From contig CAMYVI010000066.1 of NCBI GenBank assembly GCA_947302185.1, positions 1 to 10,921 of the forward strand: DNA of 10,921 nt, read 5' to 3'. The position numbers and the translations under genes are program-made. This document shows positions 1 to 5,509 of the stretch, in pieces. The stretch's first letter is position 1; every line of letters starts with the position of its first letter. Origin of the DNA: an uncultured Lachnospiraceae bacterium (GTDB lineage: Bacteria; Bacillota_A; Clostridia; Lachnospirales; Lachnospiraceae). The notes beneath the pieces were generated by a model. The model saw only the letters and a list, made by a program, of their open reading frames with translations. It was not told where the DNA came from and ran no database searches.

Positions 1-204
1 GCCGCGCATGGTGCGAAGCACCTTCCTTAATGCGCGGCTGCGATCCGCCGTGCCTGAGCATGCGTAACAATGCTCCGGTGGAGCATTGTGTAGCTGAGGC
101 TTTTAATCTCTGACGCGGGTTTGTATCCCATGTCAGAGACAAGTTTCATTTTGCGCATTCATCTCACGACTTAAGTCACGAGAATTCTGCGTCAGAGATT
201 AAAA
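1..204. repeat. Modular palindromic repeat, copy 1 (with extra hairpin)
   Basis: This is a non-coding structured repeat matching copy 2 at 2994-3184. Positions 1-50 form a branched fold: gccgcgcat (1-9) pairs with atgcgcggc (30-38) and encloses a second hairpin, ggtgc-gaa-gcacc (10-22). Positions 51-95 are absent from copy 2 and hold a perfect 10-bp stem (67-76 with 80-89, loop ggt). Positions 101-204 are bounded by a perfect 16-bp inverted repeat (101-116 with 189-204). Inside it are gtcagaga at 132-139, which can also pair with the left arm, and an imperfect palindrome around gacttaagtc (168-177). The first 103 bases of this last module are identical to copy 2. The right end contains the stop codon of the minus-strand gene at 199. 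The left edge may extend beyond the window. I see no coding capacity in 1-198. The function is unknown; possibilities are a MITE/REP-like element or an mRNA 3'-end structure. Confidence 0.9.
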
Positions 205-1380
205 TCGAATCCGATCCTTGAGCCATTTGTCAAGCTTCTCTCCGATAAGGACCGGCACTTCGCTCTCATAGTACCTCCCTGAGTAAGCCACATGCGGAAG
301 ATGTATGAATTTTCCGTCCTCATCCGGCAGCAGTCTCGCATAGAGCGGATCGGCAATCACGTATTTCGCCGCCCTGCACTCTTTCCTGAGTTCATCCTCC
401 CGTTCAATTTTCTCGCAGCCAAGGCTGACAATATCCCCGGGAAGCCCGTGCATGGGGCTGATTATTTTCACACTTCTTTTTGAGAAGGAAGTCTCGAGAG
501 TCTCCCTGATTGCCAGGGACAAAAAAGGTTCTCCTATGATCAGGATCTCTGCCGGCTCCTCGGTCTCACTTGCGGCCTCCCCAACAGACACTCTGTGCCT
601 TTCATCCGGTTCAGATTTCCGCCTCAGCTCAGATATGATCCTCTCCGTAACCTTTTTTCCTGCAGGAAGTCCCGCTACATAAGGGATTCCGAACTTTTTC
701 TCCATTGCCTTCGCTGCCCGAAGACCGAGGGCAGAAATAACAAGATTCTTCGAGACTGCGGAAGAACCGAGTATATTCTGAAGGCTATCGCCCATAGCCC
801 AGGTACTTTTCACCTCGAAGCCTTCCCGGATCAGAAGCCTTCTCATCTCCTCGACACTACCGTTCAGAGAAAAATCAAGAGGAGTCGCACCGATAATATT
901 CACACTATTCGGCATTGGCCTGCCGACCTCTCCGTCACCCGGCATCATGCTGACAAGAGCTTCCAGAGCCTGCCCGGCTCCGCTGATATAGGAGTCCATG
1001 CCGTTTGTCTGAAATCCGAATGCCGGTATACCGCACTTCCTGTATACCGCCCCGGCGACCGCCTTAAAATCCGTACCGATGATATGAGGAAGGGGACCGC
1101 CGCAGACGGCGATGAAGTCGGGACGGAACTCTTCCGCTGCAGTAACAAGGTCGTCGATCAGTTTATCATCATTTCCGAAGATGGCATTTTTCTCTGTTAG
1201 TCCGGAGATAAAGACCAGGCTGTCCATATCATACCAGCGAGGTTCATCATGAGTATTATAAGTAGAATTACACCCGGACGCATCGTGCATGACCACAAGT
1301 CCGCCGAGCTCATAGAGTGCGGAGCAGACGCCGAAATTGTCGGCCGAGTATGTGGACAGAACACGTTTTACAATTCTCAT
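199..1380 (-). CDS. Nitrogenase component 1-like protein (NifD/NifK superfamily), shorter subunit
   Basis: This 393-aa protein belongs to the oxidoreductase/nitrogenase component 1 superfamily. The superfamily includes NifD/NifK, the chlorophyll reductase subunits BchN/BchB, CfbD and many uncharacterised reductases. Three cysteines follow the cluster-ligand order of that superfamily: C19 in FGVCSALYELGG, C37 in HDASGCNSTY and C93 in IAVCGGPLPHIIG. Between them lies GLTEKNAIFGNDDKL (60-74), which resembles the conserved (E/L)TEKDxVFGG stretch after the second ligand. I chose the ATG at 1380 rather than the longer frame from 1443 because an AAGGAAAA-type ribosome binding site sits just upstream and the family-like sequence begins there (MRIVKRVLSTYSADNFG). 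It lies 120 bp downstream of the 489-aa homologue, so the two probably form a heteromeric pair. I see no FeMo-cofactor ligand pattern and no NifH in the window. The substrate is unknown. The stop codon lies inside the repeat element. Confidence 0.8.
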   Translation of the reverse strand: MRIVKRVLSTYSADNFGVCSALYELGGLVVMHDASGCNSTYNTHDEPRWYDMDSLVFISGLTEKNAIFGNDDKLIDDLVTAAEEFRPDFIAVCGGPLPHIIGTDFKAVAGAVYRKCGIPAFGFQTNGMDSYISGAGQALEALVSMMPGDGEVGRPMPNSVNIIGATPLDFSLNGSVEEMRRLLIREGFEVKSTWAMGDSLQNILGSSAVSKNLVISALGLRAAKAMEKKFGIPYVAGLPAGKKVTERIISELRRKSEPDERHRVSVGEAASETEEPAEILIIGEPFLSLAIRETLETSFSKRSVKIISPMHGLPGDIVSLGCEKIEREDELRKECRAAKYVIADPLYARLLPDEDGKFIHLPHVAYSGRYYESEVPVLIGEKLDKWLKDRIRF

Positions 1381-1500: not shown

Positions 1501-2970
1501 TTATGTTTCCGGAACAGCCGCAAGCCTTGCGCAATTCTCGGCGCACCCGAGAGCCTTGATCTGGATTAGTTTCCCCGGGTCTTTCTCATGCAGGGCGGCG
1601 TCCTCGATCATCTCAGCAAGCCGCCGGATTCCTCTGAAGCCATAGAGACCGCCGTTCTCCACAAGATTCACAAAATGCTTCGTCCCCGTAAAATATGCCG
1701 CTTTCTGTCCGATAGCAACAAATCCCGGACCTGTCGGCCTTCTGTCTGCTTTTCGCATTCTGAAGTCTGTCATCGGATAAACACGGATTTCCGGAGCATG
1801 TATCGCGAGCCATTCGAAATCCTCGCGTTCTTCCGGAAAAAATGAATCCGCATACACTCTCGCTACCGAAAAACCCTGCTTGAAAAGCATCCTCGTAAGA
1901 CTCAGCGGACGTGTGACCGCTGCGCCGTCAATGGCAATATTCCTGATTCCGACTGCCATTTTTGCTTTTCTCAATGCATTTTCGGCCTCATATCTCAGGT
2001 TGTCGAACCGAATTTCGAAATCAGCGGGTATCGGCTTTCCGAGAGTTTCCATAAGTTCCCGCTCACAGCGCTCTATTTTCCGGAAATCATAGAGTGCGGG
2101 AAGATAAATTCCCCGGCGGCCAAGACGCTTTTCCATGTCGTCGGCAGCGAATTTGACTATCGGATTGAAATAGATGTCGGCAAAAGCCTCGCCCATACTC
2201 TTGTAGTCCTCATAACTCTCAAGAGTCGGAAGCTGTCTCACGACGAAGCCGTCATCAGCCGGTCCGCAGGACGGCTTCATGTTCAAAGAATCTGCAGAAG
2301 CCGTTGATTTCTCAAAACTTCTTCCCTTTCCCGCACCGAGAAAGTCGTACAGTTCACAGTCCTCATCGATAGCATAGTAGGAACCGATGAAATTCACTGC
2401 CCGCTTATTTACCGGAAGAGGACGGACGGCTCTGTAGAGCTGTCTCCATTGCATTTTCTCCGGCGTAAAATGCTTTCGCATCGTAGGCACCATATAGCAG
2501 TCTATAAAATCGATCTCCGGGAAACGGGCCGCGGATTCACGATAGACCAGACTCAGATCTATATTGAGGAAATGCTGCACGCAGCTGGTATAAAGCAGGA
2601 CGCATGCAGGCTTCTTCTCCATCTCGTTCAGGATTTCCGTAACGCCCTCGATGATCATCGACTCGAGATCGCCTTTCAGTATATGCTCATCAGTGAACTC
2701 CAGCATGGAAAAGCGTTCCATAGCTCCCATCTCTTCTGCCGAGAGTACGACACCTCTCAGGCAGCAGCTGGGACACACAAATATCTGATGGCTGCCGGGT
2801 ATCAGCATGGACGTGTGGGCAATTGTCCACGTCCCGCGGGCGGGTGATGAATAGACAAGACCGTCCGGAAAAAGCCGATTACGGTCCGCGTCCGATATTC
2901 GAACGCCCGGATCCGGCAGACTCTCCCTGTTCTTCATTTTTATTCCGGGAAAATGCAGGTCTCTAAACAT
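1501..2970 (-). CDS. Nitrogenase component 1-like protein (NifD/NifK superfamily), longer subunit
   Basis: This 489-aa protein is a second member of the nitrogenase component 1 superfamily and the likely partner of the downstream 393-aa protein. Cysteines visible in the N-terminal domain are C66, C69 and C70 (VCPSCCLRGVVLSAEEMG), C123, C130 (LLYTSCVQHFLNID) and C158. The CCLRGV and YTSC stretches match the second and third ligand positions of the family. The stretch FTDEHILKGDLESMI (92-106) parallels the xTExDIVFGG region. The first ligand position seems to lack a cysteine, because the corresponding part reads GLVYSSPARGTW. A CX3C pair (C476, C480) lies near the C-terminus. The start at 2970 is supported by a GGAGAGGTGA ribosome binding site. 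The gene follows hydE on the same strand across a 202-bp gap filled with repeat element. Group IV/VI-type nitrogenase-like reductase is the best label; nitrogen fixation is unlikely. Confidence 0.8.
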   Translation of the reverse strand: MFRDLHFPGIKMKNRESLPDPGVRISDADRNRLFPDGLVYSSPARGTWTIAHTSMLIPGSHQIFVCPSCCLRGVVLSAEEMGAMERFSMLEFTDEHILKGDLESMIIEGVTEILNEMEKKPACVLLYTSCVQHFLNIDLSLVYRESAARFPEIDFIDCYMVPTMRKHFTPEKMQWRQLYRAVRPLPVNKRAVNFIGSYYAIDEDCELYDFLGAGKGRSFEKSTASADSLNMKPSCGPADDGFVVRQLPTLESYEDYKSMGEAFADIYFNPIVKFAADDMEKRLGRRGIYLPALYDFRKIERCERELMETLGKPIPADFEIRFDNLRYEAENALRKAKMAVGIRNIAIDGAAVTRPLSLTRMLFKQGFSVARVYADSFFPEEREDFEWLAIHAPEIRVYPMTDFRMRKADRRPTGPGFVAIGQKAAYFTGTKHFVNLVENGGLYGFRGIRRLAEMIEDAALHEKDPGKLIQIKALGCAENCARLAAVPET

Positions 2971-2993: not shown

Positions 2994-3184
2994 ATTTTAT
3001 CAAGAACGCCTCGGCGTTCTTGCCGCGCCGCGCATGGTGCGAAGCACCTTCCTTAATGCGCGGCTGCGATCCGCCGGAGGCTTTTAATCTCTGACGCGGG
3101 TTTGTATCCCATGTCAGAGACAAGTTTCATTTTGCGCATTCATCTCACGACTTAAGTCACGAGAATTCTGCGTCAGAGATTAAA
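2994..3184. repeat. Modular palindromic repeat, copy 2
   Basis: This repeat fills the gap between hydE and the 489-aa nitrogenase-like gene. In plus-strand order it holds attttat, a perfect 10-bp hairpin (3001-3010 with 3013-3022, loop tc), and the branched hairpin module at 3027-3076, identical to 1-50. Then come gaggc and the terminally inverted module at 3082-3184, which is identical to copy 1 with 15-bp arms at 3083-3097 and 3170-3184. Compared with copy 1 it lacks the 45-bp hairpin insertion. The hydE stop codon (3173-3175) is inside the right arm. There is no T-run after the hairpins in either direction, so a classical intrinsic terminator is not evident. Confidence 0.9.
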
Positions 3185-4237
3185 TCGAACATGATCCCCT
3201 CTGTCCGTGACAACATGATATCCGATGTTCTCCATCCTCATCTCCATGCAATGTCTGCATTCCGCCGCCTCATCCCCGGTACAGATTTTCCCGTCATAGA
3301 GAAGATAATCTTTTCGGACGGAAACAGGCGAGAGATTGGGCATCACTACATTTGCACCCGCTTTGATTCCCATCTCTCTCCCGAGAGGATGAATCGTACC
3401 GAGAGCAGTCGTTGCGGGAATAAGAGCTTCAGGGAACGACAGCCTGAGTATGGCAAGAAAGAACAGAGTATCTTCCAATGTTCCGCTTTTCATATCGGAA
3501 AAAGGCGTGTCATGATGCGGTATAAAGGGTCCGATACCGATCATTTCGGGCTGAAGCTCATGAAGGAACTCAAAATCATCCGCATAGCATTCCTCTGTCT
3601 GATACGGCGAACCGACCATAAAACCTGCCCCGACCTGATATCCGATGTCCTTCAGATCATAAAGACATTCCATGCGTCTCTTCATACTGAGATCCGAAGG
3701 GTGCAAACGCCGATAATGATCTTCGTTCGCAGTCTCATGTCTCAGCAGATAGCGGTCGGCACCTGCCCGGAAATATTTTTCATAGCTTGCCCGGCTCTTT
3801 TCGCCGATAGAAAGCGTTACGGCACAGTCGGGATGGAGTTCCTTGATTCCGTAAACGATTCCGCAAATGTCATCGTCACTGTAATGAAGATCCTCGCCGC
3901 CCTGTAGAACTATGGTGCGAAAATTGAGAGCATATCCGCGGTCGGCACACTCAAGGATCTGTTCTTTTGACAGCCTGTAACGGTTCACATTCCGGTTATC
4001 ACGGCGGAGACCGCAATAGATGCAATTGTTCCGGCATATATTCGTGAACTCAATGAGTCCTCGGAGAAATATGCTCTTACCGTATATGCGGTCGGCTTTC
4101 TCCCTCGCAAGACTGTACAGATATTCACGGTCTTCTTTCCGGAGCTCTCCGCGCATTGCAATCATGGATAGGAACTCCGCTCTGGACAGACTGTTGTCTT
4201 CGGCAAGCTTTTCAGCTGATTCTCTGAATTCCCGCAT
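3173..4237 (-). CDS. hydE: [FeFe]-hydrogenase H-cluster radical SAM maturase HydE
   Basis: HydE is a radical SAM enzyme that works with HydG and HydF to build the two-iron subcluster of [FeFe]-hydrogenase. The 354-aa protein has the CX3CX2C motif for the SAM-binding [4Fe-4S] cluster at C68, C72 and C75 (TNICRNNCIYCGLR), preceded by the family-typical FLRGLIEFTN. Near the C-terminus C319, C327 and C330 (CX7CX2C) reproduce the spacing of the second, non-essential cluster seen in Thermotoga maritima HydE. The length is normal for the family, about 350 aa. It begins 10 bases after the TM1266-like gene and has a GAGGAAA-type ribosome binding site. HydF and HydG are not in this window. The last residues (RFNL) are encoded by the arm of the repeat element. 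BioB or PylB are the alternatives, but the C-terminal cysteines and the neighbour favour HydE. Confidence 0.93.
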   Translation of the reverse strand: MREFRESAEKLAEDNSLSRAEFLSMIAMRGELRKEDREYLYSLAREKADRIYGKSIFLRGLIEFTNICRNNCIYCGLRRDNRNVNRYRLSKEQILECADRGYALNFRTIVLQGGEDLHYSDDDICGIVYGIKELHPDCAVTLSIGEKSRASYEKYFRAGADRYLLRHETANEDHYRRLHPSDLSMKRRMECLYDLKDIGYQVGAGFMVGSPYQTEECYADDFEFLHELQPEMIGIGPFIPHHDTPFSDMKSGTLEDTLFFLAILRLSFPEALIPATTALGTIHPLGREMGIKAGANVVMPNLSPVSVRKDYLLYDGKICTGDEAAECRHCMEMRMENIGYHVVTDRGDHVRFNL

Positions 4238-4247
4238 ATCGATTTCC

Positions 4248-4502
4248 TCAGCCTTTCTTTACATTCGAGCACGCAGCCTTAGCGCTCACACCCGGAAGTC
4301 TTCCGAGCTTTCCCGTCAGAGTATTAATTGTATTCATAGGAGCATCGATGGCTACCGCGATCAGATTCACTCCGGCTTCCCGATAAGGAATTCCCATTCT
4401 TCCGATGATGTACTCCGCATAATCATGCAGCAGGTTATTCATTTTTTCAACGGATTCCGCATCTTCCACAATGATGCTGATGAGAGCAATTCTGTTTTCC
4501 AT
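4248..4502 (-). CDS. TM1266-family iron-only hydrogenase system putative regulator
   Basis: This 84-aa protein resembles the small ACT-like/ferredoxin-fold family represented by Thermotoga TM1266, often annotated as iron-only hydrogenase system regulator and commonly found next to hydE, hydF and hydG. Visible features are the N-terminal beta strand ENRIALISIIVED, the central NLLHDYAEYIIGRMGIPYRE and the closing TLTGKLGRLPGVSAKAACS, typical of this family. There is no DNA-binding domain. The biochemical role of the family is not settled. An AAGGAG ribosome binding site lies 6 bases before the ATG at 4502. The gene is first in the operon and lies directly behind a terminator-type hairpin in the leader. 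Confidence 0.88.
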   Translation of the reverse strand: MENRIALISIIVEDAESVEKMNNLLHDYAEYIIGRMGIPYREAGVNLIAVAIDAPMNTINTLTGKLGRLPGVSAKAACSNVKKG

Positions 4503-4523
4503 CGGATACTCCTTTTCAATATG

Positions 4524-4553
4524 AAAAAAGCGTTCCTTTCACGGAGCGCTTTT
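4524..4553 (-). terminator. Terminator hairpin in the TM1266-hydE leader (candidate attenuator)
   Basis: Read on the minus strand, aaaagcgctcc pairs with ggaacgctttt (one mismatch, loop gtgaaa), and the stem runs directly into six Ts. This is a canonical intrinsic terminator ending about 20 bases before the start codon at 4502. That leaves no room for a promoter between hairpin and gene, so transcripts of the gene must read through it. The hairpin may also terminate the upstream deoR-family gene. Confidence 0.75.
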
Positions 4554-4632
4554 ACATACAAAGAGCAGCGGAAACACAATTATTTCCGTCGCGTCAGTAT
4601 TATTCATCGCTTCCGTGCAAGGTAAAGGCTCG

Positions 4633-4660
4633 CTGCGTCAGGTAGATTTTATCAAGAACG
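4633..4660. repeat. Degenerate fragment of the modular repeat
   Basis: The segment attttatcaagaacg (4646-4660) is identical to 2994-3008 of copy 2. It is immediately preceded by ctgcgtcag (4633-4641), which matches the right end of the terminally inverted module. The hairpin partner arm has decayed. The fragment lies inside the leader of the TM1266-hydE operon. Confidence 0.55.
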
Positions 4661-4698
4661 ACTCGCGAAAAAGATATTCTCCCCCGCAAGTCTGTATC

Positions 4699-4727
4699 AT
4701 TATAGCATTTCCACCGCCTATTAGGCG
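4699..4727 (-). promoter_or_regulatory. Extended -10 promoter for the TM1266-hydE operon
   Basis: The minus strand reads TGC-TATAAT at 4707 to 4699, a perfect extended -10 element. The -35 position holds no good consensus but overlaps a small palindrome, cgcct-att-aggcg, at 4716-4728, which could be an operator. It lies about 45 bases after the stop codon of the deoR-family gene. Confidence 0.6.
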
Positions 4728-4747: not shown

Positions 4748-5509
4748 TCAATGTAATCTCACATTGTTCCGCATACATGCCGTGCGGAATTCATCGGGAA
4801 CATTTTCATCCATCACAACATCTGTTATCCGGTCCATTTTGCTGATTGTAAAAGACCCCCGTCTTCCAATTTTGGAGGAATCCATCAGAATAATATTCTG
4901 GTCAGACTTTGAGATAACTGCTCTCTTGATCGCATTATCCTCTGCCGACTCACAGGTAAAACCCAGATTCTCCTCATAACTCGTCGAACCGAGAAAAGCC
5001 ATATCAAAGTTCACCGGCACCATTTCCTCGAGTGCGGAATGACCGACCACGCTCAGGGAGTTTCGATTCAGCAGACCTCCTATCATATAGACACGGGCTT
5101 TCGTCAGCCGGCTGAGTTCAATGCCGCAACTCAGGCTGTTCGTGAAAATAACACACTGAACATCCGGGAATATGTTGGCAAACAAAGTCGTGGAAGACCC
5201 GGAATCAATGAATACAGTCGTGTTGGACCTTACGAGTTTTACAGCCTTCTGAGCAATGAGCTGCTTCGCATCTACATTTCTGACAGCTCTCTTTCCGAGA
5301 AGATCATCATTTCCGATGACCTGTTCCACTGACTTTGCTCCGCCGTGAACACGGACGATTCTTTTCGCATCATCCAGAGCTTTCAGATCCGTTCTGATCG
5401 TCATATCAGAAACATGCGGAAATCTTTTTTTTAATTCTGCAAATGTTATGTTGCTCCTCTCATTCACAAGCGCTACAATTGCCTCGCGGCGTTCGTCCAT
5501 TGTTTCCAT
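4748..5509 (-). CDS. DeoR-family transcriptional repressor
   Basis: This 253-aa protein has the normal DeoR/GlpR architecture. An N-terminal winged helix-turn-helix (ITFAELKKRF, MTIRTDLKALDDAKRIVRVHGGA, about residues 21-58) is followed by a DeoRC sensor domain related to phosphosugar isomerases, with FIDSGSSTTLFA and VIFTNS. Family members usually repress sugar or nucleoside catabolic genes and respond to a phosphorylated sugar. The open frame extends to 5689, but I chose the ATG at 5509. It has a GAGGAAAAT ribosome binding site directly upstream and gives the family length, while the extra 60 residues look non-conserved and cross the promoter. No sugar genes are adjacent, so the target is unknown. 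The gene appears monocistronic. Confidence 0.9.
   Translation of the reverse strand: METMDERREAIVALVNERSNITFAELKKRFPHVSDMTIRTDLKALDDAKRIVRVHGGAKSVEQVIGNDDLLGKRAVRNVDAKQLIAQKAVKLVRSNTTVFIDSGSSTTLFANIFPDVQCVIFTNSLSCGIELSRLTKARVYMIGGLLNRNSLSVVGHSALEEMVPVNFDMAFLGSTSYEENLGFTCESAEDNAIKRAVISKSDQNIILMDSSKIGRRGSFTISKMDRITDVVMDENVPDEFRTACMRNNVRLH

Follow-up and report, generated by a model that had tools for sequence, protein, structure and literature searches.

A candidate transcription attenuator before TM1266-hydE and a putative RNA family of [FeFe]-hydrogenase maturation genes

Results

TM1266 and hydE lie behind a predicted terminator

The window is the 10,921-nucleotide stretch of uncultured Lachnospiraceae DNA that we analysed. 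In it, a gene for a TM1266-family protein and the hydrogenase maturation gene hydE follow a leader with a predicted intrinsic terminator just before the first start codon. How might genes placed in this way be controlled? The preliminary description of the locus proposed an attenuator or an unknown riboswitch. The genes concerned are as follows.

ends at 4748, minus strand: deoR-family gene, the upstream neighbour, on the same strand as the leader
4248..4502, minus strand: TM1266-family protein, first gene after the leader (TIGR03959, 109.7 bits; PF21699)
3173..4237, minus strand: HydE, the H-cluster radical SAM maturase (TIGR03956, 559.3 bits)
1501..2970, minus strand: nitrogenase component 1-like protein, co-transcription possible (PF00148, 66.7 bits)
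199..1380, minus strand: second nitrogenase component 1-like protein (NifE/BchB-like), co-transcription possible (PF00148, 105.2 bits)

The TM1266 protein of the window has a solved relative, 2nzc (E 9.5e-13), and the profiles annotate the family as a putative regulator only. The two nitrogenase-like genes (199-2970) matched no NCBIfam equivalog at its cut-off. At another locus (L026, 6297-7355), a TM1266-like domain (66.3 bits) forms a C-terminal fusion on an ABC transporter ATPase, with a FecCD permease gene before it and NifH-like and NifD/NifE-like genes after it. This fusion hints at a ligand-sensing role for the TM1266 domain, connected with the import of metals or cofactors. The window also carries direct repeats of 100% identity, one of 108 nt (96-203 and 3077-3184) with 16-nt inverted ends (TTTTAATCTCTGACGC / GCGTCAGAGATTAAAA) and one of 50 nt (1-50 and 3027-3076). 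By eye, a resembling element is present in L129, a close relative described below, and in the TM1266 leader of L135. Therefore, the repeat looks like a dispersed repeat of the group.

We assembled the parts of the leader from the sequence, from folds and scans, and from comparison with the close relatives L129 and L130.

4707-4699, minus strand: extended -10 promoter TGCTATAAT, read from the sequence (TGCTATAATG kept in L129 and L130)
4692-4660, minus strand: 5' hairpin at the expected transcript start, with a 15-pair stem that folds and is flagged as terminator-like (kept in L129 and L130)
4641-4610, minus strand: diverged CUGAC...GGAAG hairpin, the proposed sensor element, from scores of models R1 and R2 (below) and identity to L129
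4617-4608, minus strand: antiterminator strand CACGGAAGCG, common to the sensor hairpin, pairing with 4548-4540
4588-4569, minus strand: spacer hairpin CGGAAAUAAUUGUGUUUCCG, from scan and fold (kept in L129 and L130)
4553-4524, minus strand: intrinsic terminator with six Us, containing the partner 4548-4540 (kept in L129 and L130)
4509..4514, minus strand: Shine-Dalgarno sequence AAGGAG of TM1266, read from the sequence

The transcript would start near 4692, which gives a predicted leader of about 190 nt. The terminator stem (AAAAGCG-C-UCC / GGA-A-CGCUUUU, 4553-4526) has one C.A mismatch, and its six Ts (4529-4524) end 21 nt from the TM1266 ATG (4502). One automatic hairpin finder also placed it correctly. 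A consensus terminator scan did not list 4553-4524, probably because of the stem mismatch; it flagged 4692-4660 and 4588-4569 as terminator-like, with three hits in the scanned region versus 2.1 expected. A two-hexamer promoter scan returned no site at 4707-4699. Promoter, leader, terminator, and antiterminator strand all lie on the minus strand where the preliminary description had placed them. It had also proposed a third hairpin competing for the same sequence, presumably 4588-4569. This hairpin exists and is kept in L129 and L130, but in our fold it sits inside the antiterminator loop without competing.

Directly upstream of the -10 element (within 4732-4693) there is a palindrome, CGCCTAATAGGCG (4727-4715), and TGTATC/GATACA flanks the promoter on both sides. 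The palindrome, which L129 and L130 lack, is a possible operator.

The antiterminator pairing in the window

The strand CACGGAAGCG (4617-4608) and the terminator segment CGCUCCGUG (4548-4540) form nine base pairs with one bulged A, exactly the pairing first reported for this leader. With the 5' hairpin (4692-4660) included, the leader folds at -61.3 kcal/mol (z -3.83), and none of 200 shuffles was as good. Folding with and without a constrained terminator, the check suggested in the preliminary description, gave two close states: -61.3 kcal/mol for the antiterminator and -59.9 kcal/mol for the constrained terminator, a gap of 1.4 kcal/mol. Taken by itself, the antiterminator pairing does not exceed chance. 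Among dinucleotide-shuffled leaders, 552 of 3,000 equalled it, and 55 of the window's 540 tiles pair with the terminator arm as well as the antiterminator strand does. Therefore, the credibility of the antiterminator rests on comparative data.

Compensated changes in two close relatives

We searched the genus of the best syntenic TM1266 loci, where 25 of 42 genomes encode TM1266. Two loci, L129 and L130, have TM1266 proteins 89-90% identical to that of the window and the same deoR neighbour, which suggests that the window comes from this genus. Their leaders keep the promoter, the 5' hairpin, the CUGAC segment, the small hairpin, and the terminator, and the linker differs by tens of bases. The best kept stretch is 4644-4604, where 36 of 41 positions are identical to L129; the remaining leader aligns with gaps and lower identity.

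Within the antiterminator strand, L129 and L130 have UGC versus CAC in the window, and the terminator loop has GCA versus GUG. These are two compensated pairs, and all nine antiterminator pairs are maintained across the three leaders. By eye, the terminator stem also differs by one A-U to G-C pair change, and the window and both relatives can form a different inner helix, GCGAG/CUUGC. Because L129 and L130 hardly differ from each other, the compensated pairs amount to a single evolutionary comparison.

Two other loci of the genus, L009 and L013 (the same as L133 and L136), have hydE and nitrogenase-like genes in synteny. Roughly 300 nt ahead of TM1266, the canonical element is replaced in both by a shared variant, AUCU(A/C)AGGCAAAAACCCGGC...GCUUGAUGCGCAA. 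R1 found no match there, and the segment is possibly a variant sensor.

A conserved, covarying hairpin in TM1266 leaders

We collected at least 80 TM1266-encoding loci from genome contigs and read their leaders. Many of those in Clostridia contain CUGAC, a short stem, and G-R-AAG, followed by a terminator. An alignment of 42 leaders, which excludes the window, defines a hairpin (CUGAC...GRAAG) of nine pairs, with CUGAC and G-R-AAG nearly invariant. It consists of three pairs, a G.A-type internal loop, three or four pairs, a second such loop, and a second stem. Both short internal loops resemble tandem G.A pairs. We dropped the idea that CUGA...GA forms a kink-turn: pairing flanks the G.A-type pairs, and the 3-nt bulge is absent from the alignment.

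The hairpin is supported by covariation. In the 42 leaders, 90.2% of cells were paired and there were 62 double changes, a result that none of 500 shuffles reached; slid controls on the same alignment gave far lower pairing. RNAalifold recovered eight of the nine pairs unaided. A MAFFT alignment of 27 further leaders gave 92.6% pairing and 39 double changes (0 of 500 shuffles). None of these 27 was used to train R1, the covariance model built from the 42 leaders, but all were found with R1, which contains the structure, so their pairing is favoured by the selection.

A second hairpin of the same layout (GCU-GA-GYC ... GRC-AA-AGC) lies upstream of the element in 18 of 76 leaders, for example in L019 (4836-4870) and L011 (176-210). 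Seventeen aligned copies (16 distinct) were 96.5% paired with 17 double changes, and all five measures were reached in 0 of 500 shuffles, although the segments were picked by eye, which favours structure. A model of this second hairpin, R3, found L144, outside its training set, at 28 bits. It also scored the CUGAC element of L131, L132, and L134 (18 bits, E 0.049), which weakly suggests a common layout of the two hairpins. The 5' hairpin of the window occupies the position where the tandem relatives carry the upstream hairpin. R3 had no match in the window leader, 4692-4660 included, so the 5' hairpin is not recognisable as a second copy.

The element precedes H-cluster maturation genes

R1, whose seed set omitted four leaders with long inserts (L049, L054, L057, and L075), was run over 728,671 bases around the at least 80 TM1266 genes. 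There were 46 matches of at least 26 bits, all on the gene strand, and the best other match scored 17.3 bits. Forty-two of the 46 were training sequences, and L042, L049, L054, and L071 were not. The matches lie before TM1266 in 44 cases and before hydF in two (L042 and L071, between TM1266 and hydF).

We also scanned, independently of TM1266, 391 genomes of the class to which L022, a strong member of the family, belongs. Forty had a match at E <=0.01, in one place each, and this count is a minimum, because at most 15 candidates were scored in each genome. Thirty of the 40 matches were inspected: 29 loci, plus L113, which is L022 itself (two, L151 and L171, are copies of known contigs). All 29 loci precede, on the same strand, TM1266 (23 loci), hydG (4; L158, L165, L166, and L169), hydE (1; L159), or aspA (1; L172), and NCBIfam confirmed the six genes other than TM1266. 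By position, the other 10 matches (25.0-29.0 bits) fall just upstream of TM1266 (four), just downstream of it (one), or elsewhere (five). NCBIfam also identified hydF downstream of the motif in L042, L071, L141, and L143 (26.5, 29.1, 22.3, and 18.9 bits, respectively). The element thus precedes all three maturase genes, TM1266, and aspA in Clostridia. The available parts of one report (PMC11736057) describe ammonia-lyases as found near hyd operons and able to supply the nitrogen of the dithiomethylamine ligand of the H-cluster, with AspA as a possible ammonium source for synthesis of this ligand. Because ammonia-lyases can feed that nitrogen, aspA belongs functionally among the element's genes.

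In 29 genomes with TM1266 but without the element before it, R1 found three matches only, which indicates that many TM1266 genes do without the element. Two of the three (L174 and L175) are inside unrelated long open reading frames; these and L122, at 26-29 bits, are likely false positives. The third (L173, 1670-2471) is an element of 41.3 bits before an open reading frame that by eye has a HydE-like N terminus. This frame overlaps another that by eye resembles the C terminus of the window's NifE-like protein. Neither had a Pfam match, and the arrangement is perhaps a deletion or an assembly join.

The hairpin strand is matched to the terminator arm

In 63 of 73 family leaders, an automatic finder detected a terminator no more than 130 nt away, with a T-run and an energy at or below -6 kcal/mol. 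It found no hairpin in six of the 73, L163 was not included, and it chose a wrong, longer hairpin in the window and probably also in L131, L132, and L134. In 62 leaders, after the near-duplicate L171 was dropped, the 3' strand of the motif paired better with its own terminator arm than with permuted arms (means, -12.56 versus -10.53 kcal/mol; 0 of 20,000 permutations, counts that ignore species relatedness).

The matching extends to single bases in the 37 leaders with NCTTY in the arm (25 of the 62 lack it). The R of G-R-AAG and its arm partner were A-T in 20, G-C in 13, G-T in three, and A-C in one, so that 33 of 37 are Watson-Crick (Fisher P = 2e-6). At the next position, just after AAG, base and arm partner were G-C in 22, A-T in 10, C-G in one, and other combinations in four. 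In L158 (1501-1551), the motif lies directly before the hydG ATG and contains GAAAGGUGG, which reads as a Shine-Dalgarno sequence. L158 is therefore likely a translational version of the predicted switch.

In 44 of 69 leaders, the 66 nt before the element contain a -35/-10 pair, compared with a shuffled rate of 12.5%. The end of the -10 hexamer is 6-20 nt from CUGAC in 33 of these leaders and 52-58 nt in 11.

The window copy as a predicted diverged member

Is the hairpin at 4641-4610 a copy of this element? R1, built without L129 and L130, gave it 10.2 bits (E 0.37), which is not significant, and scored another place in the window at 10.9 bits. A second model, R2, which includes L129 and L130 and excludes the window, gave the site 16.7 bits (E 0.0078; E 1.4e-4 within the leader alone) and ranked it the best place in the window. 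R1 itself scored L129 at 16.6 and L130 at 17.5 bits, and three loci of the same genus, L131, L132 (the genome of training locus L070), and L134, at 33.6, 33.6, and 27.8 bits, respectively.

CUGAC and GGAAG are intact in the window. The inner helix next to the first G.A-type loop is not standard, with two pairs mismatched. The 3' strand is complementary to the 5' arm of the terminator, and the site lies before the H-cluster maturation genes TM1266-hydE. On this comparison, the window leader is a predicted member of the family by descent, not by score alone, and its copy is a putative sensor hairpin with a rearranged inner helix.

Discussion

Our comparison indicates that the window leader is probably a transcription attenuator. 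The attenuator or riboswitch-like interpretation with which we began has gained from the compensated pairs, from the preference of the hairpin strand for its own over permuted terminator arms, and from the covarying hairpin. By the preliminary description, the proposal would fail if relatives neither conserved the pairings nor showed covariation in them, and Rfam searches and alignment of related leaders were suggested as checks. We found two compensated pairs, a pairing preference seen in 0 of 20,000 permutations, and a conserved hairpin that covaries; the leader alignments revealed compensatory changes, and Rfam returned no known family for the window and the related loci scanned. The leader appears to belong to a new family of cis-regulatory RNAs that accompany [FeFe]-hydrogenase maturation genes, a family in which a conserved predicted sensor structure is joined to an expression platform, a terminator or, in L158, a Shine-Dalgarno sequence.

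In the mechanism we propose, the conserved hairpin CUGAC...GRAAG would be the sensing domain, and its 3' strand would double as the antiterminator strand, the partner of the terminator's 5' arm. A ligand that stabilises the hairpin would block the antiterminator, the terminator would form, and TM1266-hydE would be off. With the hairpin empty, the antiterminator would form and TM1266-hydE would be on. The occurrence of both terminator and Shine-Dalgarno platforms points to hairpin formation as the OFF state, and we infer the direction of control from this. An OFF-type attenuator of H-cluster assembly genes is most likely. The ligand may be a small compound, or a metal, connected with H-cluster assembly and not a protein, a proposal that we hold less firmly than the attenuator.

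The fullest reading is a dedicated riboswitch class, to which we assign a probability of roughly 0.45. Its small, sometimes tandem hairpin aptamer would sense an H-cluster intermediate, a building block, or a metal, and would switch off TM1266, hydE, hydF, hydG, and aspA, either through termination or by sequestering the Shine-Dalgarno sequence. The window would then represent a lineage remodelling its sensor before HydE and a nitrogenase-like set. A tentative alternative is compatible with the same attenuator: the hairpin might bind a protein, in the simplest case TM1266 itself, in an autoregulatory circuit. A PF21699 protein is present in 40 of the 40 element-bearing genomes versus 237 of 391 overall, and in G633 and G637 TM1266 is present even though the element precedes hydG or aspA on another contig. 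The element is a short hairpin with invariant purines, and we know of no enzymatic role of TM1266, both of which suit a TM1266-binding RNA. However, the element mostly adjoins TM1266, so the co-occurrence is partly built in, and none of the profile matches of TM1266 names a nucleic-acid-binding domain. Moreover, small-ligand RNAs commonly use terminator or Shine-Dalgarno platforms and commonly have tandem hairpins, which counts against a protein partner.

Two further explanations would take the window leader out of regulation. The family could be real and the window copy a decayed relic, leaving a terminator with fortuitous complementarity. The R1 score of 10.2 bits, the loss of two standard inner-helix pairs, and the chance-level pairing in the single sequence agree with this. 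Against it, the sensor segment is kept at 36 of 41 positions compared with L129, the rest of the leader is kept less well, and CUGAC and GGAAG are retained; in addition, the substitutions that disrupt the inner helix have compensating counterparts in the terminator loop. We consider a relic unlikely. It is less probable still that the hairpin merely ends the deoR-family transcript, with TM1266-hydE expressed by constitutive read-through. The deoR gene does lie upstream in the same orientation, ending at 4748, and a degree of read-through is necessary, but a promoter kept in relatives lies between deoR and the hairpin. Across the family, a promoter-like pair lies close before the element (33 of 69 leaders, plus the 11 with the longer spacing), so the terminator belongs to that transcript. 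The riboswitch-like attenuator remains our preferred reading.

The proposed attenuator has partial parallels in known systems. The antiterminator hairpins of LicT and SacY are short, have two internal loops, and prevent termination when bound by protein. In layout, the element resembles them as a short two-loop hairpin that affects a terminator, but its folded hairpin precludes the antiterminator, and binding would be expected to terminate transcription; in sequence, the comparison with these hairpins is that of the Rfam scans below. Tandem riboswitches exist, such as those for glycine; the doubling in 18 of 76 element leaders is similar, whereas the window has no recognisable second copy.

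The Moco RNA motif, according to the available part of its description (PMC2408646), is likewise a cis-regulatory riboswitch candidate before metal-cofactor genes, and excerpts of a second report (PMC5651825) place it, in Eubacterium limosum, ahead of a hydrogenase cluster. The element differs from it in its genes (hydE, hydF, hydG, aspA, and TM1266), and the Rfam scans of the window, of L022, and of 15 related loci did not detect a Moco motif. The HMP-PP (thiS) riboswitch (PMC6478431 and PMC6429828, in the parts available) likewise combines a compact sensor with an intrinsic terminator. To judge by the title of PMC6478431, its aptamer is embedded in the terminator, whereas the element's hairpin is separate and would compete through the antiterminator strand; Rfam gave no match here either.

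Neither the gathering cut-off nor a permissive threshold brought up a relevant Rfam 15 family, and the window had no match at the gathering cut-off. Fifteen of the at least 80 related loci yielded two tRNAs only, and the best sub-threshold match in L022 was TarB (21 bits versus a cut-off of 80). Among the matches listed in our literature searches, none described an RNA element controlling [FeFe]-hydrogenase maturation, and several of the lists held unrelated papers or mentions in passing. In main text, the word "hydrogenase" is absent from PMC6429828, PMC8632094, PMC11109978, and PMC8040213; the supplements that hold the motif lists were outside the search, so an earlier unnamed listing of the element is possible. 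The element is thus apparently undescribed so far.

Its position before the maturase genes, TM1266, and aspA would make the element a genetic means of learning what the cell monitors during H-cluster assembly. It also suggests a testable role for TM1266.
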